A stretch of 15,222 nucleotides of DNA, taken from assembly GCA_028275645.1 (NCBI GenBank), contig JAPWUH010000015.1:1-15222 (forward strand), in the 5' to 3' direction. This stretch comes from Caldivirga sp. (GTDB taxonomy: Archaea > Thermoproteota > Thermoprotei > Thermoproteales > Thermocladiaceae). This document shows, piece by piece, positions 1 to 15,222 of this stretch (the stretch's first letter is position 1; each line of letters starts with the position of its first letter). Under the pieces are notes generated by a model that saw nothing but the letters and a program-made list of their open reading frames with translations, was not told where the DNA came from and made no database searches. The position numbers and the translations under genes were made by a program.

Positions 1-1
1 C

Positions 2-367: not shown

Positions 368-375
368 GCGAAGTA

Positions 376-2306: not shown

Positions 2307-5300
2307 AGCGCTTCTCCACCAGTTTAGCCCTCCACAGGATTTCAAGGTAATTAACAATGACCCTTGACTCCATTCCAAGCTCCCTCGCCATAACGACCTC
2401 GTCTAAACCAACGTTAGGCCCATTGGACGCTATGTAAGCTAATACATTTAGGGGTACGTTAAGCCTGCTTGATACTTCACTAAGCTTGCTTATGATCAAC
2501 TTGTTTATGGACACCAAGTTTTCAATACTCACCCTCAGTTCATTTAGGTTCATGGAGTCGAGGCTCGGTATGTGCACGTCTTGGTTAAGTAAACCCCTGT
2601 ACTTGAGCCAATTAATCGAGTTAATCATCTTAGTAACCTTAGTCTTCGCCTTATTGATGTAGTCCATTAACCTGGCCCTAGCCTCCTTAACCCTGCCCTC
2701 GTATTCGCTTAGGGCTATTTCCAAGTCCTCCAGTGAGTCCTTACTAAGAAGTTCAATTATTGAATCCAAAACGTTAATGTTGGCTTCATCCTTCGGTTTC
2801 GAATCGCCTCCATTAATTAACTGGCTAATTTTAGACAGCACCATGGTTAACGTTGAGTATTCATGCGCATAGAGGAGTATTGAGGTTGCCACTTCAAGTT
2901 CCCTCCTAAGCCTATTAGCCTCCCTGGTTACGTTGTCGTTAAGGGTTTTCAACGCCTCATAGGCCTTATCCACGCTCAACCCACTTAGGTTACCCATAAC
3001 CTTTGTAACCAGCTCCCTAAGCTCATTTACCCTAGCCTTCACGGCATCCTTAAGTTCAGCCCTCACACCCTGCTCGCTGCCTATGGAGTTGATTATTGCG
3101 TTTAGGTTGCCTATGATAGCCTTAACCTCATTAACCAGATTCTCCTCCCTGCCCTTAACCTCATTAACCTCATTCTGAATATCCAATAGCCTTAGGTTTA
3201 TCTTAGCCAGCTTCTTTAAGTCATCTTCACTCGGATTTCCTATCACTGTCATGAGCAGCTTACATTCATCTTCAAGAGCCTTAACGCTATCCTGCAGGTT
3301 ACTTAGGCTGGTCTGTAGTGTCAGGTTAATGCCGTCGATGTTAATGGTTATGCTGCTGCCGAGTAATTTGCCCAATTCCCTCACCTTAATGCACGTATCC
3401 TCGACGGCCCTTCTGAACCCATCACTAGTGGTGGTTAGGATGTATTTACCGTTGTGGTCATGTAGTAGTCCCCTTAGCCTCATTAACTCCACTAGGTCGT
3501 GCTCCCTGAACTCCCTCCATAATTGCACTGGGAAGAGCCCCCTTATTATCTGCTCGAGCTCCCTCTCATCAACCGGCTTACCCACATTACTCAGGTAGTT
3601 GACTAAGGTGTACTCAACCCTGGAGATGCATGGCTTCTCCCCACAGTTAAAGGCTGGGGGTAGCTGCTGGTCAACCTTACCCTCAATCCAACCTTTAATA
3701 ATGCTCTTAATGGCATCCCTCTTACCCTCCTTCCTCCTGGGTAAGCCTAAGGTGTATTGAAGTAGGTGGTTCCTTAACGAGTCCCTAAAGGCGCTCACCC
3801 TCTCAATGAACCTCATCGCAACTTGAACCTGGCTACTGTACTCACTGGGCACCTTGCTGAACTTTGAAAGTACGTATAGGCCTATCAATGTGTTCCTCAA
3901 CTCCTCAATACTATCCGAGCCGTAACTAAGCAGGAGGATCCTCTGGGATGAGTCGTAGGTGTTGCACCACCTAACGTTCAGGTTGACGCTTAACTGCCTG
4001 GTCAATGCCTGGTCATTAACGACCAGGGCTATTAAGCCATCAACGTACTTAACCTGCCCATTCACCTTAACGCCGCAGTTTAGGGCAATGTTAGCCGCCT
4101 TATCTGGGTTGTCGAGGGTTACGTAGGCTAGCCTGGCATCCAGTACATTGTCAACAATAGCCACCCTTAAGCCGTCCTGAACCTTAATAGGGTTATTTTT
4201 AGCCAGCATACTGATTACCCTATCAGCCACGTCAATGGGCCTCATGGTGGCTAGTTGCCTAATGAAGCTACCCAGCTCATCAAGAACAGCGCCTTCTGTG
4301 TTGGCTAGGCCAAGTAGCTTATCGTGGATGCCCTTCTTCAGGATATACGCATCATAACCTATGAAACCCTCCAGGTTAGCATCAGGTGGGAGTATTACAA
4401 ATAACCTAACTCCCCTATTGGTTGGTACGGTATAGTATGAGCCGTATTCTATGGATAAGTTCCTTAAGTCATCGGTGATTATGGGCGGCTTACCATATAT
4501 CATCCTTAAGTTATTCACCTTATGCACTTCGCCTGGGTTATCTGGGTTAACCTCAATAACCTTAACCCTCTCAACCAGCCCAGTCAACTCGATGCTTGGA
4601 CTCGCCTTAACCGGAATACCCGATAAAGCCACGCCCAGCAGTTCATTGCCGTATTTCCTCAGTTCGTTTAGTAGATCTAGGTTAACGTACTTGCCCAGCT
4701 CCAATGTTATGAAGCTAAGCAGTAGGTTAACGTCCAATTGCCCATTATTTTCAATAATCATTTCGAATAGCTTTGAGGTTAACTTAATGAGGTTTCTAGG
4801 CGAGACCTGCCCATTCTCCATTCTCCTAGCTATTAAGTATATTAATGATAATGATTCCCTATTAAACGGCCACAGCGGGTTGATCTTACCATCCATAATC
4901 GCCTTAAGCCTCTCAGGTTTTGAGTATGATAGTAGCCTGTTCTCGACAATAGCCTCGTAAAGCCAGTAGGGTACCCTATCGTCGATGACCACCTCCTTAA
5001 ACACCCTACCCCTAGCTATGTCGAATACGTCAGGCACGCTGTTCCTTAATATGCCGTAGTAGAGTTGCGGTGTGAAGGCTGCTATTATCATCACCCTGCC
5101 TAGGCTACTTGGCTTCAGGTTGAGCAGTTGTGCGTAGTTCTTAGGTTCAAGTATAGCCCTTATCAACCCAGTGACCTGCATAATGGCGTTTTTAACATCG
5201 TTATTAACACCACCGGATATTGACACGACCCTGGTTAACTCATCAGCCTCATCAAACATTATAACCATTGGCTTGCTGGGATCCCTCTCACTAAGCTTAT

Positions 5301-5598
5301 TAACCAAGTAATCCTTAATGTTCATGCTGAGGCTCAGCGCAGTCCTAATAATGTCGACGTTAAGCTCCTTAAGCTTCTCCTCAACATCATCAAGCAGGTC
5401 TGACTTACCAAAGCCGTAGGGTCCAATTACAACGAGGAGCATGTTATCACTCCCCCTTAGAAAGACATTAACGGCCTTCATCACCTCATTAACCTCCTTA
5501 TCAAGGCCCATCGTAGCGTAGCGCCTAACCATCGGGGGGAGTCCACTTGGGTTAAATGGCCTATCCACAAAGCCTAATGCCTCATAACTGTTTACCAT
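2296..5598 (-). CDS. Large AAA+ ATPase with coiled coil and winged helices
   Basis: A 1100-residue ATPase. Residues 1-290 form an Orc1/Cdc6-like AAA+ module: Walker A GPYGFGKSD (59-67), Walker B VIMFDEAD (112-119), a sensor-1-like strand (MIIAAFTPQ, about 170-178) and a lid with a sensor-2-like arginine (SPRNLIKL). A beta-rich middle region follows. Around 650-740 there is a helical, winged-helix-like segment (VEYTLVNYLSNVGKPVDERE onward). From about 770 to 1010 the chain is heptad-rich, probable coiled coil, and the last 60 residues look like another winged helix (LDEVVMARELGMESR). This resembles the layout of large chromosome- or defence-related ATPases, but I cannot name a family. It heads an operon with a Cys-rich protein and a NurA-like nuclease, so an ATP-driven DNA-processing role is likely. 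ATG 5598 is the first start; a TATA-like box lies about 29 bases upstream, giving an almost leaderless transcript. Confidence 0.85.
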   Translation of the reverse strand: MVNSYEALGFVDRPFNPSGLPPMVRRYATMGLDKEVNEVMKAVNVFLRGSDNMLLVVIGPYGFGKSDLLDDVEEKLKELNVDIIRTALSLSMNIKDYLVNKLSERDPSKPMVIMFDEADELTRVVSISGGVNNDVKNAIMQVTGLIRAILEPKNYAQLLNLKPSSLGRVMIIAAFTPQLYYGILRNSVPDVFDIARGRVFKEVVIDDRVPYWLYEAIVENRLLSYSKPERLKAIMDGKINPLWPFNRESLSLIYLIARRMENGQVSPRNLIKLTSKLFEMIIENNGQLDVNLLLSFITLELGKYVNLDLLNELRKYGNELLGVALSGIPVKASPSIELTGLVERVKVIEVNPDNPGEVHKVNNLRMIYGKPPIITDDLRNLSIEYGSYYTVPTNRGVRLFVILPPDANLEGFIGYDAYILKKGIHDKLLGLANTEGAVLDELGSFIRQLATMRPIDVADRVISMLAKNNPIKVQDGLRVAIVDNVLDARLAYVTLDNPDKAANIALNCGVKVNGQVKYVDGLIALVVNDQALTRQLSVNLNVRWCNTYDSSQRILLLSYGSDSIEELRNTLIGLYVLSKFSKVPSEYSSQVQVAMRFIERVSAFRDSLRNHLLQYTLGLPRRKEGKRDAIKSIIKGWIEGKVDQQLPPAFNCGEKPCISRVEYTLVNYLSNVGKPVDERELEQIIRGLFPVQLWREFREHDLVELMRLRGLLHDHNGKYILTTTSDGFRRAVEDTCIKVRELGKLLGSSITINIDGINLTLQTSLSNLQDSVKALEDECKLLMTVIGNPSEDDLKKLAKINLRLLDIQNEVNEVKGREENLVNEVKAIIGNLNAIINSIGSEQGVRAELKDAVKARVNELRELVTKVMGNLSGLSVDKAYEALKTLNDNVTREANRLRRELEVATSILLYAHEYSTLTMVLSKISQLINGGDSKPKDEANINVLDSIIELLSKDSLEDLEIALSEYEGRVKEARARLMDYINKAKTKVTKMINSINWLKYRGLLNQDVHIPSLDSMNLNELRVSIENLVSINKLIISKLSEVSSRLNVPLNVLAYIASNGPNVGLDEVVMARELGMESRVIVNYLEILWRAKLVEKRYVS
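2314..2320 (-). promoter_or_regulatory. Ribosome binding site for the Cys-rich gene
   Basis: GGTGGAG on the minus strand, seven bases before ATG 2306 and inside the ATPase gene's last codons. It decides the start at 2306 over the upstream in-frame ATG at 2378. Confidence 0.65.
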
Positions 5599-5620
5599 TC
5601 AGGAGTAACATTAGGCATCC

Positions 5621-5633
5621 CCTAAATTAAGGG
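5621..5633 (-). promoter_or_regulatory. TATA-like promoter of the ATPase-nuclease operon
   Basis: On the minus strand the sequence is CCCTTAATTTAGG, centred near 5627. Transcription would start near 5602, a few bases before ATG 5598. Position fits an archaeal promoter; the box itself is weak. Confidence 0.45.
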
Positions 5634-5702
5634 ATCAGTTAAAATTAATGGAATACACACGGGCTTAGTTAAAATCCCTAAGGTAAGGAGGGTTTAACAA
5701 CA

Positions 5703-5734
5703 GTCAAGCCTCGCCCTCAGGGCGGGGCGTCAAG
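5703..5734. repeat. GC-rich palindrome framed by GTCAAG direct repeats
   Basis: Bases 5708-5716 pair with 5720-5728 (nine pairs including one T-G, loop TCA), giving a very stable hairpin in either transcript. GTCAAG occurs directly on both sides (5703-5708 and 5729-5734). It sits between two divergent genes, so it is not an ordinary terminator for either. Such short GC hairpins resemble terminal palindromes of IS200/IS605-type elements or REP-like sequences, but no transposase or TnpB gene is in view, so a solo element end is only a possibility. Confidence 0.55.
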
Positions 5735-5813
5735 TATGCTTAGCCTATACTCCAGTTAACGTTGCCACGTAGTTAAACCTTTAATCATAACCCCTCCTGC
5801 GAGGAGCAATAAA

Positions 5814-5822
5814 GTTTTTAAA
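5814..5822 (+). promoter_or_regulatory. TATA box of the eS1 gene
   Basis: GTTTTTAAA-type box preceded by purines (AATAAAG), centred near 5818. Transcription would start near 5842, the ATG of eS1. Just upstream is a small hairpin, CTCCT-GCG-AGGAG (5794-5806), that could be an operator. A second AT-rich stretch at 5772-5786 could support a longer leader containing AAGGTGAT. Confidence 0.6.
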
Positions 5823-5841
5823 CTAAGGTGATGCAGGTTTG

Positions 5842-6537
5842 ATGATGGCTCAAGCGCCACAGGCCGTTACACAGCAGAGGATACCTCTAGGTAAGTGGGC
5901 GTTTAAGAAATGGCTCACTGTCCACGCCCCAGCCTTCCTGGGGGGTCAGGCTATTGCCGAGATTCCCGTTGATGAGCCGTCTAAGGCTATTAATAGGAAT
6001 GTTGAGATTACGCTGTACGACTTAACCAAGGACTTAACGCACATTAACGTTAAGCTTAGGTTCAAGGTAAGTAACGTCGATGGCGACAGGGCATTTACGC
6101 AGTTTAACGGAATGGAGTTGACTAGGGACTACGTCAGGAACCTCATTAGGAGGGGTTCAAGCAAGGTGATGATCATTAAGGATGTGACCACTAAGGATGG
6201 TGGTAAGTTAAGGATGGAGGTGCTGGCCATAACAACATATAGGTGTACCAGGACCCACAAGCACCTGATAAGGAAGTCGATAATGGATATGCTTGATAAG
6301 ATTAGCCAAGAGGCGGACTTCAATACCCTAGTCAGGGATTCAATAATGGGTAAGCTTCAGGTGGAGTTCTTCAACGTAGCTAAGAAGATATACCCGCTCA
6401 GGAAGGTTGAGATAATTAAGATAAAGGTGCTTGCGCAACCTAAGGGGATGGAGGCCAAGCCCCAAGCCGAGGCCGCTAAGGTTACGCAGGAGGTTCCGCA
6501 GCAGTTAACCAGCGGCCAAACCGGGAATATGCAGTAG
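5842..6537 (+). CDS. rps3ae: 30S ribosomal protein eS1 (S3Ae)
   Basis: Archaeal/eukaryotic small-subunit protein eS1, which lies on the 30S platform near the mRNA exit. The family is recognisable from the basic N-terminus (PLGKWAFKKWLTVHAPAFLG), the GQAIAEIPVDEPSKAINRNV segment, NVKLRFKVSNVDGDRAFTQF and TTYRCTRTHKHLIRKSI, followed by the conserved EFFNVAKKIYPLRKVEIIKI. The C-terminal 30 residues are a low-complexity Gln/Ala/Pro tail, common and variable in this family. Start: TTG 5839, ATG 5842 and ATG 5845 are consecutive; 5842 fits both the TATA spacing (leaderless) and the AAGGTGAT at 5825-5832. Length is normal. Downstream is the first copy of a structured RNA gene and then uL10. Confidence 0.97.
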   Translation: MMAQAPQAVTQQRIPLGKWAFKKWLTVHAPAFLGGQAIAEIPVDEPSKAINRNVEITLYDLTKDLTHINVKLRFKVSNVDGDRAFTQFNGMELTRDYVRNLIRRGSSKVMIIKDVTTKDGGKLRMEVLAITTYRCTRTHKHLIRKSIMDMLDKISQEADFNTLVRDSIMGKLQVEFFNVAKKIYPLRKVEIIKIKVLAQPKGMEAKPQAEAAKVTQEVPQQLTSGQTGNMQ

Positions 6538-6549
6538 AGGGGTTATCTG

Positions 6550-6596
6550 GGCTGTTTTGGTTTTCATATTATTTGTGGTGCTTATTTCTGTTAATG
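6550..6596 (+). repeat. Upstream block shared by both RNA genes, copy 1
   Basis: This block matches 13573-13620 with one gap; shared words include GTTTTCATA, TATT, ATTTCT and TTAATG, and most differences are transitions. It ends 46 bases before the RNA start and begins 12 bases after the eS1 stop codon. The T-rich part (CTGTTTTGGTTTTCAT) could terminate eS1 transcription, but its conservation in front of a second RNA copy behind an unrelated gene suggests a link to the RNA gene itself. Confidence 0.6.
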
Positions 6597-6613
6597 GTTA
6601 ATTCCAGAATAAG

Positions 6614-6622
6614 TTTATAAAT
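6614..6622 (+). promoter_or_regulatory. TATA box of RNA gene copy 1
   Basis: TTTATAAAT centred near 6618, preceded by purines (AATAAG). It is 25 bases before G6643, where the alignment with the second copy begins. No long open frame follows, so it is best explained as the promoter of a non-coding RNA. Confidence 0.7.
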
Positions 6623-6642
6623 CTGACTTAAACACGCTTAAT

Positions 6643-6785
6643 GGTTACCCTGGTGTCTCGAGATCCGTAGTGGCTGGGAACCCCCGGCGACCGTTGGGGA
6701 GCCACTACGGTGAGCAACCCCAAGAAGACCACTGAGAAGAAGACGGTGGAGGATTAACACCCCCACCACCTCCAGAGAGACGGTA
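6643..6785 (+). ncRNA. Structured RNA of unknown class, copy 1 (143 nt)
   Basis: It aligns without gaps to 13665-13807, about 105 of 143 positions identical by hand count, with nearly 90% identity over the central 60. Visible structure: an 11-bp stem CCGTAGTGGCT/AGCCACTACGG (6665-6675 with 6700-6710). TTGGGG in its loop (6694-6699) pairs with CCCCAA after the stem (6718-6723), making an H-type pseudoknot. A closing helix may form from 6652-6656 with 6757-6761, a short helix from 6729-6731 with 6747-6749, and a 3' hairpin from 6766-6772 with 6777-6783 (two A-C mismatches here). A TATA box lies 25 bases upstream, and uL10 has its own promoter downstream, so this is a separate transcript. I see no RNase P CR-I/CR-V motifs, SRP S-domain, C/D boxes or H/ACA layout. 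Function unknown; both ends are inferred from the alignment. Confidence 0.75.
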
Positions 6786-6808
6786 AAAGGAAGCAGCAGA
6801 CAGTAAAG

Positions 6809-6818
6809 TTTTAATAAT
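6809..6818 (+). promoter_or_regulatory. TATA box of the uL10 gene
   Basis: TTTTAATAAT preceded by TAAAG, centred near 6813, about 24 bases before ATG 6836. This predicts a leaderless uL10 mRNA, independent of the RNA gene just upstream. Confidence 0.6.
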
Positions 6819-6835
6819 AATCCCCTAAATGCCGA

Positions 6836-7759
6836 ATGATGGCTACTACATCGGTTAGGCAGCAGTACACCAGGGCTAAGCCGTACCCTGACTGGAAGGT
6901 TAAGACACTGGAGGAGCTTGAGAGGTTGATTAGGGAGTACAAGACTATAATGATATTTGACTTAAAGGGATTATCAGCATCGGTACTTCAGCAGTATAGG
7001 AGGGTGTTGAGGGGTCATGGCGTTGTTAAGGTCTTTAGAAATAAACTACTCCTAATAGCGTTGAGGAGGGTTTACGGTGAGTCACTTAACCCAGATATTG
7101 AGAGGAATTACCTAACAGGTGAAAACGGGTACATCTTCACCAATGAGAATCCCTTCGACCTATATAAGGTCATTATTGATAATTCCGTTAGGAGATATGC
7201 AAGGCCTGGTGATGTCCTACAAACCGAAATAATAGTCCCAGCCGGTAATACAGGTATTAACCCAGGTCCAATATTAAGCAGGTTCAGTAAGCTAAAGATC
7301 CCAACACAGATTAGGGAGGGTAAGATTTGGGTGGCCAGGGATACGCAGGTGGCTAAGGCTGGTGATAAGGTTACTCCCGAATTAGCCGACCTGTTAAGGC
7401 TGATTAAGGTTAAGCCAATATACGAGTCACTCAGGATTAAGGCAGTGTTGATTAACGGTAGGTACGTAGTTAAGGGCGAGGAGTTGGCCATTGATGTTAA
7501 GGCGTATGAGAATATGTTCAAGCAGGCGGCATCATGGGCATTGAACCTGGCCATCAACTCAACACTATTAATCCCAGAAACAATTAGCATATTAATCAGT
7601 AGAGCTGTGATTGAGGCGCGTAACTTAGCCATAAACGCCAACATACCTATAGCCGAGGTAATGGGCATCATACTGGCTAAGGCGCAGGCGCAGGCAAATG
7701 CCCTGGCATCAGTACTGTACAGTAAGGTACCTGAATTAGGTGGAAGCCGGCCAGGTTAA
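6836..7759 (+). CDS. rpl10: 50S ribosomal protein uL10 (acidic protein P0)
   Basis: Archaeal uL10/P0, base of the ribosomal stalk that recruits translation factors. The rRNA-binding domain is clear: KTLEELERLIREYKTIMIFD, then LSASVLQQYRRVLRGHGVVK and FRNKLLLIAL. The archaeal insertion domain follows (VPAGNTGINPGPILSRFSKL, IPTQIREGKIWVARDTQVAK, KVTPELADLLRLIKVKP). The C-terminal part is a long helical region (about 225-300) like the spine that binds P1/L12 dimers. The usual charged tail ending in a GLxxLFG-like motif is absent: the protein stops at ELGGSRPG after 307 residues, whereas archaeal P0 proteins I know are longer. Start is one of two adjacent ATGs (6836, 6839), both consistent with a leaderless mRNA. 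P1/L12 is not in the window. Confidence 0.95.
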   Translation: MMATTSVRQQYTRAKPYPDWKVKTLEELERLIREYKTIMIFDLKGLSASVLQQYRRVLRGHGVVKVFRNKLLLIALRRVYGESLNPDIERNYLTGENGYIFTNENPFDLYKVIIDNSVRRYARPGDVLQTEIIVPAGNTGINPGPILSRFSKLKIPTQIREGKIWVARDTQVAKAGDKVTPELADLLRLIKVKPIYESLRIKAVLINGRYVVKGEELAIDVKAYENMFKQAASWALNLAINSTLLIPETISILISRAVIEARNLAINANIPIAEVMGIILAKAQAQANALASVLYSKVPELGGSRPG

Positions 7760-7777
7760 GGCACGTGGAGTCCAGTA

Positions 7778-8221
7778 TTACACCATGTTGATAATTAACC
7801 TGATTCTACACACAATGTCGTTAATAATTGATTTATCGTACCTGGCCAGTGACATTAACCTAGCTAAGTCCACGATGTAGGGTAGGTCATCAATTGGTGA
7901 TGTACACATCTCAGCCACTAGGCTACTTAGGGCTTGGTCAACATCACCACCACTGATGATGGGCAGTATTGATACCAGGTTCCTCTTAAGCGTCTCACTG
8001 GCCCTTGGCTTCACGTAAAGTAGGTAGTTACTTACCGCAGGGTTATTCTGCGCCGTATTTCCCAGCGCAACACTCCTTAACGCGTCGTTAACCTCCTTGG
8101 CGCACGCATTATCCTTAACCTTAGGCATAACCATCGCCACCGCATCATTGACACTACCCCCTTGGCACATGATCCTCAGCACCTCCTCCATGGCATTCCT
8201 CACATCATCAACGCACAGCAT
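7778..8221 (-). CDS. Unknown helical protein downstream of a DtxR regulator
   Basis: I do not recognise this protein. It is predicted to be all-helical, with a central Asn/Gln-rich turn (LGNTAQNNPAVSNYLLYVKP), and has several isolated cysteines but no CxxC pair and no membrane segment. It follows the DtxR-family gene at a short distance and was probably cotranscribed, which suggests but does not prove a link to metal homeostasis. Start: the frame opens with GTG 8233, but ATG 8221 is preceded at eight bases by GGTGA (8230-8234, minus strand), so I prefer the 147-residue form. It converges on uL10 with only 18 bases between the stop codons, leaving little room for separate terminators. Confidence 0.65.
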   Translation of the reverse strand: MLCVDDVRNAMEEVLRIMCQGGSVNDAVAMVMPKVKDNACAKEVNDALRSVALGNTAQNNPAVSNYLLYVKPRASETLKRNLVSILPIISGGDVDQALSSLVAEMCTSPIDDLPYIVDLARLMSLARYDKSIINDIVCRIRLIINMV

Positions 8222-8256
8222 CAGGTCTTTCACCCTCTATACTTAAAAATGTGTGA

Positions 8257-8901
8257 TTACCTTGACTCCATTACGATTATTCCCGATGCTATGGAATCAT
8301 CAATGATTATTTGCCGCCCGTTAAACTCAACGGTTACATTACCCTTCCTCCTACGTATAACCGTTAGGGTATCGTTAATGCTAATCCTGTTACTAGCCAG
8401 GAAGCCTAACACGCTCTTTAACTCGGCCACTGCAGTTACTATAACTCTACCTGGGTATGACTTTGACAATCTTACCCCCTCAGGTTTGCCGTAAATAGGA
8501 TTACCGTGTGGGCATACCCTCGGCTTACCAAGCATGTTATATATCTTATCTATCACCAGGTCGTTAACGTGCTCCAGTTCATGAGCATACACGTGGGTTT
8601 CCAATTGACTAAACCCAAGTATGCCTAGGAACACTTCAAGTATCCTATGCTTACCCAGCATTTTACCAGCCAACTCATTACCATTATCCGTAAGGGTGTA
8701 GATACCTCTACTCAACTTAACCACGTACCCCTCATTACTTAAATGCTCAATCACCTTATGCGCAGTCGCAGGGGTAACGCCAAGTTCATTGGCTATTAAT
8801 GTCAGTGACGCCTCACCGTAGAAATCATTAAGTATCCTAATCACCATTAGGTAATCCTCCTTGGCAACCTTAGTACTCCTGCTCTCCCTAACAGTCTCCA
8901 T
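8257..8901 (-). CDS. DtxR/MntR-family metal-dependent transcriptional regulator
   Basis: Iron- or manganese-responsive repressor of the DtxR (IdeR/MntR) family, full length at 214 residues. Order of parts: N-terminal winged helix (about 14-75; recognition helix region LGVTPATAHKVIEHLSNEGY), then the dimerisation and metal-binding domain with KHRILEVFL, HVYAHELEHV and CPHGNPIYG. The His/Glu/Cys/His residues in these motifs are the known metal ligands of the family. The last 70 residues form an SH3-like FeoA-type domain with a strand-rich end (NVTVEFNGRQIIIDDS). The Cys in CPHG is more typical of iron-type (DtxR/IdeR) than of manganese-type regulators. A strong TATA box places the transcript start just before ATG 8901. 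The only neighbour in the operon is an unknown helical protein; its targets are not evident in the window. Confidence 0.93.
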   Translation of the reverse strand: METVRESRSTKVAKEDYLMVIRILNDFYGEASLTLIANELGVTPATAHKVIEHLSNEGYVVKLSRGIYTLTDNGNELAGKMLGKHRILEVFLGILGFSQLETHVYAHELEHVNDLVIDKIYNMLGKPRVCPHGNPIYGKPEGVRLSKSYPGRVIVTAVAELKSVLGFLASNRISINDTLTVIRRRKGNVTVEFNGRQIIIDDSIASGIIVMESR

Positions 8902-8924
8902 TGAATTCTCACATCTTTTATCCC

Positions 8925-8933
8925 TATATAAAA
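8925..8933 (-). promoter_or_regulatory. TATA box of the DtxR-family gene
   Basis: On the minus strand TTTTATATAG, centred near 8929, about 27 bases before ATG 8901: leaderless mRNA. The short stretch between box and start includes GAATTC, but I see no convincing long dyad for autoregulation. Confidence 0.65.
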
Positions 8934-8940
8934 ATAATGC

Positions 8941-9462
8941 CTAGTAACGGATCTTAAGCCACAATTAAATTTTTAGGTACGGAAAACTTGGTTCAAAGCT
9001 TAAACTCAATAGGCTTAAACATGGTCACTTAACATACTACCTAGCCCTAATGGACGCGGGATTATGGCTAAGGTTATTTCAGGCTTATCGATGTCTTACA
9101 GTGTAACCATGATAACCTATGGTTGCTTTCCCTACTCCCTAGTTATGCCGCTCCTTGGTGATGGTGTTTATTAGTCTTGGTTTTAAGTTACCATTGAGTG
9201 TTGGTTATGGTCTGTGTTGTGGTGGGTCAGCACCCTGGGGCTTGTGAACCTATGTATCCCCTTAACTAGGTTCCATGACCCATGGGTTATGTTGATGAAT
9301 ACGCATGGTGAGGACTAACGGGTCGGCGGAAGAATGCTGGGTGGGTATCCTCCTTCTTTTACTTGAATTCTTTCGACATGCTTCCAGTTGATTAATTAGG
9401 GTGTTATGTAACGCACTTTAAGATATTGCCATGGTTTGTAAATACCTATATCTGGTGAAACG
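8941..9462. other. Gene-free stretch, possible decayed sequence
   Basis: More than 500 bases without a long open frame on either strand. Short open pieces (for example 9064-9174 on the plus strand, 36 codons with a hydrophobic composition) are each closed by stops and shift frame, which could mean a decayed membrane-protein gene; I see no recognisable motif. No tRNA, CRISPR repeat or strong long hairpin is evident. GTTGATGA near 9292 looks like a box C, but no matching box D follows at the right distance. Confidence 0.4.
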
Positions 9463-9470
9463 TTTAATTA
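9463..9470 (+). promoter_or_regulatory. TATA-like box of the DUF1512 gene
   Basis: TTTAATTA centred near 9466, about 26-28 bases before GTG 9495. It supports that start for a nearly leaderless transcript. Confidence 0.5.
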
Positions 9471-9494
9471 CCCCCACCATACACCTACTGAGTC

Positions 9495-10670
9495 GTGGTA
9501 AATGGCTCAGTAATACTGGGTATGGTTCAGGTGCTTCAGGCACCCCCGCTGAATAGTCAGAACGCTCAACAGTACCTACTGTACAATATCATACTTCTAA
9601 TACTTTGGTTTGGGATATTCCCATGGTTTTACGAGATGTTCCAGCTATGGAGATATCAATCCCAGGTAAGTGGTTTCCTGAATAGGCTAAGGTTCTTTAT
9701 GAATAACAATATATCCCAGGTACTGGACTTCATAATGAGTAAGGTTAATGAGGACAAGCGCCTAATTGAGGGTAGGATAAGGGATTTAATGGAGATGGTT
9801 ATAATAGAGCCCACTAGTATTGAACCTGAGGGGTTGGTTAGGAAGTATAAGATGCTCATTAACTCGTATAATGATAGGCTTGAGAGGGATGTGATTAGGC
9901 TCATACCGTCTCTAAGCAGCAATAGGCCCGTGGTGCAGAACTTCACAAACGTCATAGATGTGTTGAGGGAATTGAACTTCATATACAAGGTTATTGACCA
10001 CTACTACAGGTTGGCCATTAAGTACAAGAGCTATTACCTACTAATTCAACTGGCGGCGATACTACCACTACTTAAGGAGGAGGTCGATGCCTTAAACGGC
10101 TCAGTCCCCGTGTTCCTCAAGGGTCAGCCCATAGGCGACTCAGCAGGCCCATTAACGGTGTTTAGGTTTAAGAACCTGTGCAGCAACTTAAGCGTCATAA
10201 ACAATTCAGTTAAGGATACCTACTTAGCGTCATGCATGTTTAAGGATAGGAAGGTATACCTAGTTAAGGCTGAGGGTCCAGGCGGAACCGTGGGCCACCT
10301 GGATGATGCCATAAAGTACATTTACGAGGGTATTAATGCAAGGCCTAAGTTAATGATAACCATAGACGCGGCGCTGAAGTTGGAGGGCGAGGAGAGTGGC
10401 TCAATAGCCGAGGGGCTTGGGGTTGCGATGGGTGGTATTGGTGTCGAGAAGTTTAACATAGAGTCCCTGGCGACTAAGTACGGCACCCCAATATACGCCA
10501 TCCTGATAAAGATGAGCATGCCTGAGGCACTTAACGCAATGACTAAGACTATAGATGAGGCTGTTAATAAGGTTGTTGAGAGGCTGGGTAAGGTTGTGGA
10601 GGCCTATACGGAGCCAGGTGATGAGGTGGTTATAGTTGGCGTCGGTAACACAATAGGCGTTGCCCAGTGA
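9495..10670 (+). CDS. DUF1512 family membrane protein
   Basis: Archaeal protein of the DUF1512 family; function unknown. After about 25 polar residues comes a single membrane segment (about 28-48: LLYNIILLILWFGIFPWFYE), then a long helical cytoplasmic region (about 55-200) with a charged, coiled-coil-like part. The conserved C-terminal domain (about 205-391) carries GQPIGDSAGPL, EGPGGTVGHLDDA and IDAALKLEGEESGSIAEGLG, glycine- and acid-rich motifs that suggest a ligand or nucleotide site. GTG 9495 is chosen because a TATA-like box lies about 26-28 bases upstream; ATG 9522 is the alternative. It is followed after six bases by a small membrane/zinc-ribbon-like protein, almost surely in the same operon. 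Identification of the family is from memory of these motifs. Confidence 0.85.
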   Translation: MVNGSVILGMVQVLQAPPLNSQNAQQYLLYNIILLILWFGIFPWFYEMFQLWRYQSQVSGFLNRLRFFMNNNISQVLDFIMSKVNEDKRLIEGRIRDLMEMVIIEPTSIEPEGLVRKYKMLINSYNDRLERDVIRLIPSLSSNRPVVQNFTNVIDVLRELNFIYKVIDHYYRLAIKYKSYYLLIQLAAILPLLKEEVDALNGSVPVFLKGQPIGDSAGPLTVFRFKNLCSNLSVINNSVKDTYLASCMFKDRKVYLVKAEGPGGTVGHLDDAIKYIYEGINARPKLMITIDAALKLEGEESGSIAEGLGVAMGGIGVEKFNIESLATKYGTPIYAILIKMSMPEALNAMTKTIDEAVNKVVERLGKVVEAYTEPGDEVVIVGVGNTIGVAQ

Positions 10671-10676
10671 TAAGTA

Positions 10677-10967
10677 ATGCTCATTAGCATAGACCTATAC
10701 ACAACGTTAATACCAACTGTAATAACCGCGTTAACGGCAGTCGTCCTATTTTACACTGTTTCAAGGGAATTAAGGAACACCCTAGCTGTGAGTAGCGTTA
10801 AGAGGATAAGCGAATACGTCACTTTAAGGTGCCCCACCTGTGGTTATGTTAAGGTTAGGGAGTTTAAGGTGGGGGACTACGTGGGTAAGGTTGATGATGA
10901 GAAGTGCCCGAGGGATGGGTCGAACCTGGTCATAATGGGCATTGGTAAGGAGCAGGTCAGCGCTTAG
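10677..10967 (+). CDS. Small membrane protein with zinc-ribbon-like domain
   Basis: A 96-residue protein with one N-terminal membrane segment (about 10-28: [20 protein letters not shown]) and a cytoplasmic zinc-ribbon-like part. The ribbon has CPTCGY (Cys52, Cys55) and CPRDGSNL (Cys77), where Asp80 stands in the place of a fourth cysteine, so metal binding may be incomplete or may use another ligand. ATG 10677 is six bases after the DUF1512 stop. Both proteins have one membrane segment and a cytoplasmic domain, so they may form a complex. The 3' end overlaps the convergent uS8 gene by four bases. I know no named family for it. Confidence 0.8.
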
Positions 10968-11356
10968 TATACGTAGGCCAGTAAAACCCCACCAGTCCTA
11001 CTCTCCCTAGCCTCCAGGTGCGACATAACTCCCTTAGATGTGGACAGTATTAATATGCCTATCTGCCTGGCCGGTAGGTACCTCTCCTCCCACTTCTGCA
11101 GTTCATTAACCTTAACATGGAACCTCGGCTTTATTGGGCCTATGTTATTTATTCTACCCAGCAGTTGAACAATGTACTTACCTCCCCTGCCATCGTATAC
11201 ATACTCGAACTCGCCGATATAACCGTACCTCTGCATAACCCTTAGCACATTACCCACTAGCTTGGATGATGGCCAAATAACAACTTGCTTACCGCCCCTG
11301 GCCTCCACGTTCTTTATGCTGATTAACGCATTCGACAATACATCAAGCATGACCAT
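10964..11356 (-). CDS. rps8: 30S ribosomal protein uS8
   Basis: Small-subunit protein uS8, which binds helix 21 of 16S rRNA and organises the central domain. Typical archaeal form of 130 residues: N-terminal [20 protein letters not shown], helix/strand segment [20 protein letters not shown], the internal [13 protein letters not shown], and the C-terminal signature [16 protein letters not shown] with GGVLLAYVY at the end. A TATA box about 25 bases before ATG 11356 shows an independent, leaderless transcript; a second ATG at 11350 is possible. It stands apart from other spc-operon genes and follows an unknown gene and an endonuclease subunit, so it is a dispersed ribosomal gene, as often seen in Thermoproteales. 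Confidence 0.97.
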
Positions 11357-11376
11357 AGGCCAGCAACCCCCAACCT

Positions 11377-11386
11377 CTATATAAGT
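11377..11386 (-). promoter_or_regulatory. TATA box of the uS8 gene
   Basis: ACTTATATAG on the minus strand, centred near 11382, about 26 bases before ATG 11356. It lies just after the unknown gene's coordinates (stop at 11399), so uS8 can be transcribed separately from the two genes upstream. Confidence 0.65.
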
Positions 11387-11398
11387 GTTTCCGTTTAA

Positions 11399-11692
11399 TC
11401 AGCACCTATGTTTATCCATGGATTTAACCAGGTCGTTGAGGTTGCCGTATGATGCCACCAAGTTATCGCCGCACATTACATCAATCCTATCAATCTTGTA
11501 GGCGCTCAACACTACGTGGGGTGGTTGCTGGAATGCCCTACTCCATGGAACCTTAGAGCCGTTAATGTCGGTCGCCTTGATTTCACCGTCTATGGTTATT
11601 AGGTACTTGGTATCCCTAAACCTCACGACAATCCTAAACCTCCTACTTCTAGAGGTCTCAACTATGCGCTCAAGGTCCCTTAGACTCACCAC
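11399..11692 (-). CDS. Unknown small protein coupled to the endonuclease subunit
   Basis: I do not recognise this 97-residue protein. It has a helical, Arg-rich N-terminus (LRDLERIVETSRSRRFRIVV) followed by a series of short strands (KYLITIDGEIKATDI, VVLSAYKIDRIDVM) and a short C-terminal helix, ending in His-Arg-Cys. The basic first part could bind RNA, but nothing specific shows it. Three GTG codons in a row (11695, 11692, 11689) are possible starts; GGTGA at 11699-11703 is best spaced for 11692. The start lies within the last codons of the tRNA-splicing endonuclease gene, so the two are probably translationally coupled, and a role with that enzyme is a fair guess. uS8 follows with its own promoter. 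Confidence 0.65.
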   Translation of the reverse strand: MVSLRDLERIVETSRSRRFRIVVRFRDTKYLITIDGEIKATDINGSKVPWSRAFQQPPHVVLSAYKIDRIDVMCGDNLVASYGNLNDLVKSMDKHRC

Positions 11693-12224
11693 CACCCCTC
11701 ACCCTGAGCCATTCAGCATCCCTTTGACTTGGCTCTATCGTAAACGCCCTATAGTATGTTAGAGTCCCCTCTGAGCTTAACAATGCCAGGACAAGTTTCA
11801 TTCCATTCCTCTCAGCGTAGTCGGTTAACTCAAGTAGCTCAGTGGTCCTAATGCCCCTACCCTCATCGAGGATTTTAACAACGTACTGTGGGTTAGATGA
11901 CAGTGCGTTCTTTTTCTTATCCCAGACGAGCATGTCAACTTTACCATCCCTAACCGGCTTAACGTAAAGACCCCTATTCCTCAAATCCAGGTAAACCATG
12001 AATTTCTCGAGGTCGCCTGAACGTAGGACATCCATTATTGAGGCAGGCCTACCATTAATGTAAACCTTAAAATCGCCCATATATATCAAGTAGGCTAGTT
12101 CAATGGAGTCTATCTCATCAGGGTTAATGAACCTCTTATCACTCAGCAGCAGTCTTGATGCCTCATCCTCAACAGCGTAGAGACCTCCAACATCCTTAAC
12201 CCTAAGTATCTTCATACTCCTCAT
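11670..12224 (-). CDS. tRNA-splicing endonuclease subunit, probably non-catalytic
   Basis: Resembles the archaeal tRNA-intron endonuclease (EndA) family: an N-terminal part with LLLSDKRFINPDEIDSIELA, then the C-terminal nuclease fold with FMVYLDLRNRGLYVKPVRDG and GMKLVLALLSSEGTLTYY. In catalytic subunits the fold carries Tyr, His and Lys. Here the strand expected to end in Tyr reads VDMLVW (Trp101), and the expected His before the next strand is Ser/Asn (SSNPQYVV). Only the Lys of MKLVLAL (Lys143) is evident. Crenarchaea use a two-subunit enzyme, so this is probably the structural partner; the catalytic subunit is not in the window. ATG 12224 is the only ATG after an upstream in-frame stop, apart from one at codon 4. 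A TATA box lies about 40 bases upstream. Its 3' end overlaps the following small gene. Confidence 0.75.
   Translation of the reverse strand: MRSMKILRVKDVGGLYAVEDEASRLLLSDKRFINPDEIDSIELAYLIYMGDFKVYINGRPASIMDVLRSGDLEKFMVYLDLRNRGLYVKPVRDGKVDMLVWDKKKNALSSNPQYVVKILDEGRGIRTTELLELTDYAERNGMKLVLALLSSEGTLTYYRAFTIEPSQRDAEWLRVRGGGESKGP
11699..11703 (-). promoter_or_regulatory. Ribosome binding site for the 97-residue protein
   Basis: Minus-strand GGTGA, inside the end of the endonuclease gene, six bases before GTG 11692. It favours 11692 or 11689 over the first GTG at 11695. Confidence 0.55.
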
Positions 12225-12259
12225 ATTTAGCTTAACTATAGGGCTTCAGACTAGTGATT

Positions 12260-12268
12260 ATTTATAAA
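12260..12268 (-). promoter_or_regulatory. TATA box of the endonuclease operon
   Basis: TTTATAAATA on the minus strand, centred near 12264, predicting a transcript start near 12239 and a leader of about 15 bases before ATG 12224. The remaining 200 bases up to the divergent glycosyltransferase promoter show no gene or clear repeat. Confidence 0.6.
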
Positions 12269-12469
12269 TTCTTCCACGGAATCCTCATTACCCCATGCCG
12301 CATATTGTGAATTAACTCGGTGCCTCACTAAGCCATCTGTAGCCTTGACACTCCTCACTAGGTAATCAACCCCATTGATTAATAAATCTATGAGACTTGA
12401 ACATTCCTAGAGCCACTAGCATTACCCCTCACGCATAGCTGGTGTGGAATGGCCTCTGAACCCTCGGGC

Positions 12470-12477
12470 ATATATAG
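12470..12477 (+). promoter_or_regulatory. TATA box of the glycosyltransferase gene
   Basis: ATATATAG centred near 12473, 26-27 bases before ATG 12500. It decides for ATG 12500 instead of TTG 12497 and gives a leaderless mRNA. Confidence 0.7.
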
Positions 12478-12499
12478 GGGTTGGGTTTAGTTTACTTTG

Positions 12500-13555
12500 A
12501 TGGAGGTTGCCATCGCCTACGATACGTTGAGCAGGTGGGGTGGTCAGGAATTGGTCACCTATGCCATGGCCAAGGCGCTTAGTGAAAGCGGCTTCACAGT
12601 GGATTTGGTGCTGCTTTTCGATGGGGAGGTGGACCGTAGGCTGGTTGACATCCCGGCTCGGAGGATAGTGAGTCTATTTGAACATGACCCCAATTTACCG
12701 ATTCGTGGGTTAACTAGGAACGTGATAACAGGCCTGGCTAGCTTAGGCTACGATTTAACCATAAATACTGTTTACCACGTCCTGGTGTGGCCCTTCGACA
12801 TAGGCTACTTAAACAACCCAGGCACCTACATGCCACCCTACAGGCCCAGGAGGAGAATCTTCATAGAGCTTAATAGAATTATGCTGCCAATACTGGGGCC
12901 ACGCATACTACTAGCCAACTCTAGGTGGACCCTGAGTCAACTACCTTATAGGCCTAGGTTGAGCGGCGTCCTATACCCCCCTGTGATGCCTCGTGACTGT
13001 GGTTCAAGGGCCAAGGAGGATGTTGTGGTTTCCGTGGGTAGGATAGCGCCGGACAAGAGGACCACCGAAATCGTCGATATGATGGAGGCTGCGTATAGCA
13101 GATACCCTAAGGCAGCCTACTACGTAATTGGCCTTCCCTACAATGAGGCGTATCTTAGGCAGGTTAGGGAGAAGGCTAGGCACGTTGAGTTGGTGCTTGA
13201 TGCGAGTGAGGATGTTAAGTGGGATTACCTATGTAGGGCTAAGGTACTACTGCACGCGGCCATCAATGAACACTTCGGGCTTGTGGTGGCCGAGGCTCAG
13301 GCGGCTGGGGCAGTACCCGTGGTTCATAAGTCCGGCGGGGCATGGAGTGACATAGTTGAGTACGGTAGGTATGGCTTCGGCTACCTCAACCATGCCGAGG
13401 CTGTCGACGCCGTGGTTAAGCTACTGGCCAATGAGGATTTATACCGCAGATACAGCACCGAGGCTAGGAGACACTCGCTGAAGTTCACGTACGGTGCATT
13501 TAAGGTAAGACTCATTAGGTACGTTAACGTAGCCCTAGGTCTCAAGTCCACATGA
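12500..13555 (+). CDS. GT4-type glycosyltransferase
   Basis: Retaining glycosyltransferase of the GT-B fold, GT4 family, that would transfer a sugar from a nucleotide-sugar donor to a lipid or glycan acceptor on the cytoplasmic side. The N-terminal Rossmann domain starts with VAIAYDTLSRWGGQELVTYA, where the GG loop after the first strand is typical. The C-terminal donor domain begins around SVGRIAPDKRTTEIVDMM (the Arg/Lys pair is a family feature) and contains the E-x7-E motif EHFGLVVAE (Glu258, Glu266 counting from the TTG) followed by AQAAGAVPVVHKSGG. The overall sequence recalls the Alg11/mannosyltransferase type, but donor and acceptor cannot be read from sequence. About 351 residues, complete, no membrane segment. 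It stands alone in its transcription unit and is followed by a structured RNA gene. Confidence 0.92.
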   Translation: MEVAIAYDTLSRWGGQELVTYAMAKALSESGFTVDLVLLFDGEVDRRLVDIPARRIVSLFEHDPNLPIRGLTRNVITGLASLGYDLTINTVYHVLVWPFDIGYLNNPGTYMPPYRPRRRIFIELNRIMLPILGPRILLANSRWTLSQLPYRPRLSGVLYPPVMPRDCGSRAKEDVVVSVGRIAPDKRTTEIVDMMEAAYSRYPKAAYYVIGLPYNEAYLRQVREKARHVELVLDASEDVKWDYLCRAKVLLHAAINEHFGLVVAEAQAAGAVPVVHKSGGAWSDIVEYGRYGFGYLNHAEAVDAVVKLLANEDLYRRYSTEARRHSLKFTYGAFKVRLIRYVNVALGLKST

Positions 13556-13572
13556 TTACTCACAACACTTAG

Positions 13573-13620
13573 GGTGGTTTCAGTTTTCATAGCTATTCGT
13601 AGCGCTCATTTCTATTAATG
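13573..13620 (+). repeat. Upstream block shared by both RNA genes, copy 2
   Basis: Homologous to 6550-6596 (one gap, mostly transition differences). It starts 17 bases after the glycosyltransferase stop codon and ends 44 bases before the second RNA copy. The sequence between this block and the RNA is poorly conserved between copies except for the presence of an AT-rich box. Confidence 0.6.
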
Positions 13621-13634
13621 CCTAGAAGTTGTGT

Positions 13635-13644
13635 CTTAACTTAA
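13635..13644 (+). promoter_or_regulatory. Weak TATA-like box of RNA gene copy 2
   Basis: CTTAACTTAA centred near 13640, 25 bases before G13665, the same spacing as in copy 1. It is a poorer TATA match than that of copy 1, so expression may be lower. Confidence 0.45.
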
Positions 13645-13664
13645 CCCTCCCAATGCCCTTTGTC

Positions 13665-13807
13665 GGTGGCCTTGGGTTTCCGGGATCCGTAGTGGCTGAG
13701 AGCCGCGGGCGACCGTTGGGGAGCCACTACGGTAAGCAGCCCCAGGGAGACCGACAAGAGGGAGATAGCGGAAACATCAAACCTTCGCCGTCTCTGGAGA
13801 GACGGTA
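13665..13807 (+). ncRNA. Structured RNA of unknown class, copy 2 (143 nt)
   Basis: Second member of the pair, aligned base for base to 6643-6785. The 11-bp stem (13687-13697 with 13722-13732) and both strands of the pseudoknot (13716-13721 with 13740-13745, last pair T-G) are kept. Two helices show compensatory change relative to copy 1: in the closing helix G-C becomes T-A (13677/13780), in the short helix A-T becomes G-C (13753/13769). The 3' hairpin CCGTCTC-TGGA-GAGACGG (13788-13805) is perfect here and has two A-C mismatches in copy 1. Of 38 differences about 28 are transitions. Copies lie behind unrelated genes and I see no target-site duplications, so gene duplication is more likely than insertion of a mobile element. 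A continuous open frame through it is probably accidental. Confidence 0.72.
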
Positions 13808-14013
13808 GGGTCTACCTAACCGATCTACTAGGTATGATTTTGAATTTTGAATAACGTGGATAAGTTCGTTCTGACGATTAGCAAGACTCAATGACTTAGG
13901 TTACTTAGGGGTTATGGTAAGGTGGATATGGCCCTCGTGCTAGCCTAAGTCTATGGGAGGGGTTATCCATCAGGTATAGGTGGTGATGTTAGGCAAATAG
14001 GTCAGCGAGTACG
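13808..14013. other. Gene-free stretch after RNA copy 2
   Basis: About 200 bases with no supported gene. A small hairpin GGTAG-GGT-CTACC (13804-13816) overlaps the RNA 3' end, and a T-rich part (ATTTTGAATTTTGAA, 13837-13851) could terminate the RNA transcript. Nothing else is recognisable. Confidence 0.4.
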
Positions 14014-14021
14014 GTTTATAG
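14014..14021 (+). promoter_or_regulatory. TATA box of the radical SAM gene
   Basis: GTTTATAG centred near 14018, 29 bases before ATG 14047, giving a nearly leaderless transcript separate from the RNA gene upstream. Confidence 0.6.
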
Positions 14022-14046
14022 GCTCGGCTACTAGCCTTAACGCGTA

Positions 14047-15132
14047 ATGCCGGTGTACTCATGGACATTAAGGACCTATGAAGTGGACAGGGGCCTGCTT
14101 AAACTACCTAACGTCAGGGAGAGCCCATTCTACATTAAGCTTAGTGATAAGATTAGGTGTACACTTTGCAATAGGCGCTGCACATTATCCAATGGGCAAG
14201 TTGGGTTGTGCGGCATGAGGTTTAACATCGATGGTAAGCTATACACCGCCGCCTACGGCCTATTAACAGCAGCCGAGTCGAGGCCCATGGAGATTAAGCC
14301 ACTCTTCCACTTCTACCCAAGGACATCGGCAATGACCATAAGCACCTGGGGCTGCAACTTCCCCTGCGCCTGGTGCCAAAACTGGCACCTGAGCAAGTTC
14401 GCAAGCCTCGAGGGCGTCTATGTGCCGCCTGAGGACATTGTTAAGTGGGCGGTTGAGAATGGGGACTCCGGCGTGAACATAAGCTTCAATGAACCAACCC
14501 TACTCACGGAGTATACAATAGACTTATTCAAGGTAGCTAAGGCCAAGGGATTGCACGCGTCAATAAACACAAACGGCTACCTCACACCAGAGGCTATAGA
14601 TGCTCTCTATAATGCAGGCCTTGATGGGATGAATGCCGATATAAAGGGTGGAGCTGAAACGTACAGGTCTTGGTTGGCGGCTGACTTTAAGAAACTTATG
14701 GATAGCCTTGAACACGCCGTGAGGCTTGGTATCCACCTGGAGGTCACATACCTGGTGATTCCGGGTGTTAATGATGACGAGGCTGATGAGGTGATAGACG
14801 CCGTCGCAAGGCTTGGTAGAGACACGCCACTTCACATAACAGCCTACTACCCAGCCCACAGGTTAAATAACCCATCAACACCCATAGAACTAGTTGATAA
14901 CATATGGAGGAGGGCTAAGAGGGAACTCGACTACGTATACACAGGTAATGTGCCTAGCCACCCAGGCCAACACACATACTGCCCTAGGTGCGGCGCAGTG
15001 CTTATCAAGAGGTCTGGGGATAGGGTCATTGACGTTAGGTTTAATGGTTTAAAGTGCCCCAGGTGCGGCTATGAGGTTAAGATAAGGGGCTTCATAGGCA
15101 AGTACGGTAACCTGTACAGAAGATTCATCTGA
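14047..15132 (+). CDS. amrS: AmrS-type radical SAM protein (AmmeMemoRadiSam family)
   Basis: Radical SAM protein of the pyruvate formate-lyase activase-like group, best matched by AmrS of the AmmeMemoRadiSam family. The 4Fe-4S/SAM motif CxxxCxxC is CNFPCAWC (Cys103, 107, 110), preceded by MTISTWG. An N-terminal cysteine cluster (Cys38, 41, 45, 55: CTLCNRRCTL and GLCGM) fits the AmrS type, and the barrel shows NISFNEPTLL, ASINTNGYL and LHITAYYPAHRLNN. The C-terminus has a zinc ribbon made of two CPRCG knuckles (Cys312/315 and Cys337/340). The reaction is not settled from sequence; the usual partners AMMECR1 and Memo-like proteins are not in the window. 361 residues, complete, with ATG 14047 and a TATA box at 14014. 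Its 3' end overlaps a possible minus-strand gene by eight bases. Confidence 0.9.
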   Translation: MPVYSWTLRTYEVDRGLLKLPNVRESPFYIKLSDKIRCTLCNRRCTLSNGQVGLCGMRFNIDGKLYTAAYGLLTAAESRPMEIKPLFHFYPRTSAMTISTWGCNFPCAWCQNWHLSKFASLEGVYVPPEDIVKWAVENGDSGVNISFNEPTLLTEYTIDLFKVAKAKGLHASINTNGYLTPEAIDALYNAGLDGMNADIKGGAETYRSWLAADFKKLMDSLEHAVRLGIHLEVTYLVIPGVNDDEADEVIDAVARLGRDTPLHITAYYPAHRLNNPSTPIELVDNIWRRAKRELDYVYTGNVPSHPGQHTYCPRCGAVLIKRSGDRVIDVRFNGLKCPRCGYEVKIRGFIGKYGNLYRRFI

Positions 15133-15220
15133 AAACAGTGAATGTTAACTCCCCTGAAATACCAGTTACAATTCCTCTATCAGGCACTATGTTACCACCA
15201 GTATCGTTAAATTGGTTATA
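15125..15220 (-). CDS. C-terminal end of a minus-strand protein cut by the right edge
   Basis: A minus-strand frame is open from the window edge to a TGA at 15127-15125 and gives 31 residues with a protein-like, strand-rich look (GGNIVPDRGIVTG, ELTFTVFR). The gene would converge on the radical SAM gene with an overlap of eight bases, as other gene pairs in this window do. No family can be named, and an open frame of this length can occur by chance. Confidence 0.45.
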   Translation of the reverse strand, partial: YNQFNDTGGNIVPDRGIVTGISGELTFTVFR

Positions 15221-15222
15221 AC

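Follow-up and report, generated by a model that had tools for sequence, protein, structure and literature searches.

A probable head-to-head variant of the TnpB/omega-RNA system, with many solo guide-RNA copies, in Caldivirga and other hyperthermophilic archaea

The window analysed here, 15,222 nucleotides of a Caldivirga sp. draft genome (GenBank assembly GCA_028275645.1, contig JAPWUH010000015.1, positions 1 to 15,222), carries two related structured RNAs of 143 nucleotides on its forward strand, copy 1 at 6643-6785 and copy 2 at 13665-13807, which belong to a dispersed mobile element. We consider it probable that these RNAs are guide scaffolds of the omega-RNA type from a family of IS607-like, TnpB-only transposons in hyperthermophilic archaea, and that the two window copies are solo guide-RNA genes. 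We read the system as a variant of TnpB/omega-RNA in which gene and RNA are arranged head to head, the RNA being encoded opposite to the nuclease gene, and in which many copies are solo guide RNAs.

An earlier note on this DNA had described the two RNAs as paralogues of unassigned class that suggest a lineage-specific family. The underlying comparison holds, as 6643-6785 and 13665-13807 are identical at 105/143 positions in an ungapped alignment and lose their similarity on either side; so does the absence of a class, since a Rfam scan at E≤5 matched neither RNA to RNase P, SRP, H/ACA or any other family. The sole Rfam match in the window is sub-threshold (E=0.37) and lies away from both RNAs, and ARAGORN detected neither a tRNA nor a tmRNA across the window. 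The count of two was far too low: a DNA self-search of the window genome (1.32 Mb in 209 contigs, 68% complete) returned 30 matches at E≤10, with 23 at E≤0.01, two of them parts of one copy, and a covariance model built from the 33 near copies of alignment A3 (model R1) gave 34 matches, 22 of which exceed 70 bits. The genomes used for comparison include the sister genome of Caldivirga sp. MU80 (G003, 94% complete) and that of Vulcanisaeta sp. MG_3 (G024). Matches to R1 occur in 15 of 61 genomes, with at least 51 in MU80 (one place counted on both strands) and none in G001, a congeneric genome in a single contig. Viral contigs yielded 23 pattern matches, of which none is a relative.

The repeated unit adds about 90 nucleotides upstream of the RNA. 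Over 38 copies, conservation on the right side stops at GACGG, with near-zero bits in the flank, and on the left side it extends some 90 nucleotides past the RNA, TATA-like box included; the bases of the box and of the start region are themselves conserved. In most copies listed the left border reads GGG followed by C(T/A)GTTTCGGTTTTC or a near-identical sequence, and the left end, located by this motif or by eye, lies at most about 110 nucleotides from the RNA in 33 of the 38; four copies have a long open reading frame (ORF) instead, and one sits at a contig edge. In the short copies, the RNA occupies the right end of a mobile element of about 230 bp, and because sequence conservation stops at the RNA 3' end, the DNA beyond it is the presumed guide. 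The corresponding features of the window are as follows (MITE, miniature inverted-repeat transposable element; TAM, target-adjacent motif).

6552-6783 (+): mobile element copy 1, non-autonomous and MITE-like, from the left end to the last scaffold base of GACGG; placed by the left-border listing and by the empty S3Ae/L10 site in MU80
near 6543 (+): alternative start of the copy 1 left end; sister copy L013 shares GGTTATCTGGGCTG, which the empty site of L013 places inside the element
6549-6551 (+): GGG at the copy 1 left end, target/TAM-like motif; GGG precedes the left end in most listed copies, and GG(G)G is found in other copies' empty sites
6539-6542 (+): GGGG, the target/TAM-like motif if the longer copy 1 left end is right
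6552-6605 (-): copy 1 left end
6613-6623 (+): TATA-like promoter element of RNA copy 1
6643-6783 (+): omega-RNA-like scaffold copy 1, from covariation on A3 and covariance-model search
6648-6655/6718-6725, 6665-6675/6700-6710, 6681-6697 and 6729-6783: copy 1 helices P1 and P2, GNRA-type hairpin P3 and 3' module P4, respectively
6784-6803 (+): flank of copy 1 as its presumed guide, with the length assumed, placed by the end of conservation at GACGG and by the TnpB mechanism
13575-13805 (+): mobile element copy 2, non-autonomous; left-flank homology to MU80 (G003:C83) stops at 13574
13572-13574 (+): GGG at the copy 2 left end, also present in MU80 where homology stops
13665-13805 (+): omega-RNA-like scaffold copy 2, from alignment to copy 1, covariation and model matches
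13806-13825 (+): flank of copy 2 as its presumed guide, with the length assumed, placed by the conservation border

Comparison with MU80 reveals sites that lack the element. Copy 1 is absent from the S3Ae-L10 interval, where the flanking matches lie 25 nucleotides apart versus 267 in the window, and for copy 2 homology to MU80 extends through the left flank as far as the GGG at 13572-13574 and not beyond. When 13 pairs of joined flanks were searched, six matched MU80 across the junction and five of these were aligned: L013, L023 and L014 give clean empty-site junctions, exemplified by an empty CTTGG-GG-TTGAG against a filled CTTGG-GG-[element]-GAC-GG-TTGAG, while L024 and L016 are consistent with empty sites but show extra differences; the sixth, L012, matches at 79%. 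Comparisons with G001 and G002 (3 of 8 alignments) were too diverged to locate the junction. The elements therefore insert at GG(G)G, with GG alone shared by their two ends and no target duplication, which is the rule of IS607 transposons, described in the cited portion of PMC6188088 as inserting at GG, with (G)GG preferred and no duplication. At one locus, L021, the insertion occupies the same place in the window genome and in MU80. Separately, copies L009 and L036 have a common right flank: L036, in MU80, combines the left flank of L022 with the right flank of L009, both of the window genome, owing either to copies having recombined or to a join made in assembly.

If the RNAs were, as the earlier note had envisaged, host small RNAs with no tie to mobile elements, they could also be structured and multi-copy; this reading is contradicted by the empty sites, the sharp borders and the linkage to a TnpB-like gene described below, and we assign it an almost negligible probability.

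In the gene-bearing copies L038, L017, L033 and L049, the RNA is divergent from an ORF of 345-401 amino acids. The ORF starts 51-52 nucleotides from the RNA in three of the four, and in L049 the frame is open further, into the RNA. In six of seven gene-bearing copies examined, the left end overlaps the ORF stop or lies within about 90 nucleotides of it, which means that the element holds only the TnpB-like gene and the RNA. L051 occupies the same site as L033; its ORF reads on through the left end, whose sequence is also that of the left end in the short copies. These borders bear on a further alternative, in which the true guide RNA would lie at the 3' end of the gene, as in canonical TnpB, and the divergent RNA would be an antisense-type or decoy regulator. 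Published TnpB systems do use the 3' end or downstream DNA, as far as the cited sections of PMC8612924, PMC10278001 and PMC11061315 go; here, however, the left end lies at or near the gene stop in those six copies, and the conserved RNA lies on the 5' side with its own 3' end at the element border, so that we regard this arrangement as highly improbable.

The encoded protein could be placed by family models, invariant residues and predicted fold. Among 35 diverse homologues searched against NCBIfam at E≤1, 24 matched TIGR01766 (best E 1.2e-7), 21 guided_TnpB (1.3e-9) and 12 Cas12f2 (1.5e-4), and five matched the Pfam TNB domain at the same threshold (best 0.0017). Sixteen residues are invariant throughout, including D209, N211, E273, D346 and H348, of which D209, E273 and D346 correspond to the RuvC residues, an assignment by motif rather than by superposed active sites. 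In the PDB, a sequence search with the single protein returned nothing and a profile search gave weak Cas12f/TnpB matches amid proteasome chains, so a fold search was needed. An AlphaFold2 model (pLDDT 87.9, pTM 0.80) matches Cas12f and TnpB over residues 1-362 by Foldseek and VIA-align, and the protein of about 362 amino acids is accordingly predicted to adopt a TnpB/Cas12f fold with a RuvC domain.

The predicted RuvC domain also bears on whether the RNA might guide the protein in gene regulation rather than in DNA cutting, be it as a TldR-like factor, that is, a nuclease-dead repressor, or as a domesticated regulator. The window copies are intergenic, with copy 1 directly upstream of the L10 gene, and at least the L021 insertion is common to both genomes, all of which would suit such a role; against it stand the invariance of the RuvC D, E and D in 35/35 homologues and the six other sites that are empty in MU80, and we judge it improbable.

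The pairing of gene and divergent RNA extends well beyond Caldivirga. Protein searches gave matches in 29 of 121 genomes, and a profile search placed relatives at 116 loci of named genomes, of which 80 were kept, in Caldivirga, Vulcanisaeta, Ignisphaera, Aeropyrum, Desulfurococcales, Pyrodictiaceae, Bathyarchaeota and one Thermococcus metagenome-assembled genome (MAG). A second model, R2, was built from 15 RNAs of other families, picked by eye upstream of genes and including no sequence from this genus; it nevertheless detects copy 2 from end to end (E=5.4e-4) and copy 1 weakly (E=0.37). The family is therefore not confined to this lineage, as is also clear from relatives next to TnpB-like genes in taxa ranging from Thermoproteales to Desulfurococcales, in Bathyarchaeota and in the Thermococcus MAG. 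Counting as RNA any R1 or R2 match at E≤0.01 that lies upstream of the gene and on the other strand, we found a divergent RNA at 50 of the 68 kept loci with at least 200 nucleotides upstream, and at all 41 such loci of the near clade, defined by a protein match starting before residue 20 and with L294, L296, L297 and L298 (28-31% identity) set aside. Some of these loci were in the model training, and 21 of the 41 near-clade RNAs fall below 85% (identity times coverage) to any training RNA. For 15 distant RNAs, the distance from the RNA 5' end to the script-chosen start codon is 49-52 nucleotides in nine, 65-69 in five and 34 in one.

Several loci are unusual. In more distant clades, an ORF of 48-57 amino acids separates the TnpB-like gene from the RNA (L071:2478-2624, L063:2543-2689, L065:2546-2719); that of L071 matches the MazE-type antitoxin family (PF04014, E 1.7e-9), those of L063 and L065 match nothing at E≤0.01, and the small protein is perhaps a regulator of the divergent promoter. 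L290 has three R2 matches around one TnpB-like gene (916-1052, 2557-2697, 3107-3210), one divergent and two past the 3' side of the gene, which represent clustered copies. L273 comes from a euryarchaeal MAG, Thermococcus sp. MAG GB_MAG1_027; its TnpB-like gene belongs to the near clade (41% identical) and has a divergent RNA, reflecting either horizontal transfer or a binning error.

Covariation refines the secondary structure. The 11-bp stem reported earlier is present in both window copies, with 92.5% of its cells paired over the 33 copies of A3, whereas the 6-bp pseudoknot from its loop to a downstream strand is paired in 73.5% of cells with one cell changed on both sides; stem and pseudoknot together give two both-sides-changed cells, a number reached in 236/500 shuffles. 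The downstream strand of this pseudoknot, nucleotides 76-83 of copy 1, pairs better with nucleotides 6-13 (94.7% and 93.9% of cells for its two parts), with one pair being U-G in 18 copies and G-C in nine. The covariance-model check called for by the earlier note has thus recovered a family in which the stem pairs are kept and the pseudoknot pairs find no support. The fold that we propose, comprising P1, P2, the GNRA-type hairpin P3 and P4, is paired in 89.3% of cells and has 55 both-sides-changed cells versus 27.5 in shuffles (0/500 as many), a control that kinship of the sequences can inflate; it is the closing and 3' helices that covary over the near copies. Strand swaps among 27 homologue RNAs agree with these helices, as own partners average -19.7 versus -11.4 kcal/mol for foreign ones in P1 and -17.8 versus -9.3 kcal/mol in P4, with 0/2000 permutations as low in either case; the 27 are those of 41 with the required motif, the other 14 lacking it, and include L231, whose 3' strand is unreliable owing to an N run beside the locus. 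Some distant loci have, by eye, the same CCGTGATGAAC...GAACGG module, and an alignment of the distant RNAs (A4) loses register in P1 from one family to another. A distant-clade RNA in MU80 (L083:633-774, contig G003:C25) matches R1 and carries a 3' hairpin module of the kind seen in that genome's near-clade RNAs, which suggests an exchange of right ends between families.

Conservation of structure and promoter is also what separates a functional RNA in the short copies from right-end DNA that the transposase needs, in which case the solo copies would be inert MITEs and any role of the RNA would be confined to gene-bearing copies. In the outer 3' helix, one pair is broken in 9/33 copies, some copies are truncated, and of the TATA-like boxes that the earlier note had placed ahead of both RNAs, that of copy 1 is clear (GTTTATAAATC at 6613-6623) and that of copy 2 is not (TGTCTTAACTTAACC). 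Yet the TATA and start-region bases are conserved over the 38 copies, and the helices covary in a 33-copy set with just three gene-bearing members (L038, L017, L049), though those three could be the source of the signal. We consider inert solo copies unlikely, if the most serious of the competing explanations.

How the elements move is suggested by their ends. At the end of a MU80 contig, L225 (G003:C71:89319-89714) encodes a serine recombinase that matches PF00239, is of IS607 type by eye and adjoins an ORF resembling, also by eye, canonical TnpB, making it a candidate helper element. The left end of the RNA elements, GGGCTGTTTCG, lies 62 nucleotides before this IS607-type tnpA of MU80, and a similar AGGCTGTTTTTGG lies 63 nucleotides before the tnpA of another genome, G004. 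Because of the IS607-type insertion and the left-end sequence ahead of the MU80 tnpA, the elements are likely mobilised in trans by IS607 TnpA. Y1 HUH transposases (PF01797) were found in 3 of 12 genomes, and R2 had no match at E≤1 on 20 serine-recombinase loci.

Several results weigh against the guide-RNA interpretation as a whole. The four proteins tested gave no Pfam match above cutoff, and the C-terminal zinc ribbon (CxxC) is not conserved, with no invariant or near-invariant cysteine in the 35 homologues. The TnpB-like genes of the window genome amount to one frame-broken gene (contig C201) and two contig-edge pieces (C39, C43), in an assembly whose incompleteness is stated above. The elements examined contain no transposase gene, the gene-bearing ones holding the TnpB-like ORF alone; no Y1 transposase was found in the window genome (68% complete) or MU80 (94%), no serine recombinase was found in the former, and the left-end motif precedes 2 of 9 serine-recombinase loci checked and is lacking at seven. 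Eighteen of the 68 loci are without a counted RNA match, being distant or without an N-terminal protein match; three of them, L276, L281 and L301, are 52-61% identical and lack that N-terminal match, and at L276 an R2 match overlaps the start of the protein match. The weak detection of copy 1 by R2 belongs here as well.

We propose a model with these reservations in mind. An element of the L038 type, about 1.3 kb long, consists of the left end, the predicted nuclease gene reading toward it, a short putative divergent promoter and the RNA reading toward the right end; with GACGG as both the last scaffold bases and the right end, transcription into the flank would supply a guide matching the sequence immediately beyond that end. 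At the left border, the target GG(G)G would serve as TAM. As in published TnpB systems, the complex of nuclease and RNA would be expected to cut the empty site once restored (GGG plus flank), which would favour retention of the element. The window copies would be deletion derivatives that have kept both ends and the RNA, have lost the nuclease gene and could be served in trans. In this family the RNA has a promoter-like box of its own, clear in copy 1 of the window but not in copy 2, and in gene-bearing elements the nuclease gene is inverted relative to the canonical geometry.

Known systems provide precedents for parts of this model and mark where it departs from them. In the cited part of PMC8612924, the right-end element RNA (reRNA) of TnpB ends in about 16 nucleotides of flanking DNA that act as the guide, and the excised site with its TAM is cut; the Caldivirga elements share the anatomy, in that the scaffold stops at the right end, the adjoining flank is the presumed guide and a TAM-like motif stands at the left end. 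The same source describes ISDra2 (IS200/IS605), whose target is TTGAT and whose reRNA matches the tnpB 3' end and the right end, whereas here the RNA diverges from the start of the gene. Other TnpB proteins make omega-RNA by processing their own mRNA (PMC10278001, in the section cited), and for IS607 TnpB with a RAGATH-18-derived reRNA the cited text of PMC11061315 places the RNA downstream of tnpB and reports AG-rich TAMs beside the putative left end. A TnpB-family nuclease and a structured RNA are common to the RAGATH-18 systems and ours, but the Caldivirga RNA is upstream and divergent and has no Rfam match, the protein has no conserved cysteine, and the examined elements carry no tnpA, which also sets them apart from IS607 itself. 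With canonical omega-RNA made from the 3' end of tnpB on the same strand, and the RNA here on the other strand (41/41 near-clade loci, 50/68 overall), neither the mRNA-processing nor the downstream-RNA route fits. The GGG at the left border has a parallel in ISXfa1, an IS607 element whose TnpB depletes GGG according to the cited excerpt of PMC10711439. Unlike in CRISPR Cas12f, the presumed guide is the flank of a mobile element. MITEs of the IS200/IS605 and IS607 types are short non-autonomous copies that retain both ends, as do the short copies here, but each of the latter has also retained a guide-RNA gene, in many cases preceded by a TATA-like box.

Among the open-licence literature matches listed (titles and abstract starts, a scope that excludes a 2023 PNAS survey of TnpB/Cas12), none describes a divergently encoded TnpB guide RNA, and no paper in that literature treats Caldivirga and TnpB together. 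Without a conserved zinc ribbon or, in the four proteins tested, a Pfam match above cutoff, this small hyperthermophile protein may have been missed by surveys for the usual TnpB domains. In canonical TnpB, where the guide RNA is cut from the tnpB transcript or lies downstream of it, guide supply is tied to the nuclease gene, at least in the published sections cited above; an RNA with its own promoter, pointing away from the nuclease, would separate the two, provide a natural experiment on guide RNA and nuclease becoming independent transcripts, as in the CRISPR-Cas12 state, and explain the spread of tnpB-less copies that still keep a usable guide. Tentatively, dozens of solo guide-RNA genes, many with a TATA-like box of their own and each followed by a different guide derived from its insertion site, could even share a few zinc-ribbon-less TnpB nucleases, themselves encoded head-to-head with an RNA, as a genome-wide dispersed guide-RNA system. 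If so, guide and nuclease would be separate transcripts, and a CRISPR-like arrangement would have evolved inside an IS607-type transposon.

Elsewhere in the window, the minus strand encodes at 758-1654 a NurA-domain protein (PF09376, E 6e-11), which may form a DNA-processing pair with a nearby 1100-amino-acid protein (minus strand, 2296-5598) whose matches to AAA ATPases are weak and below cutoff.

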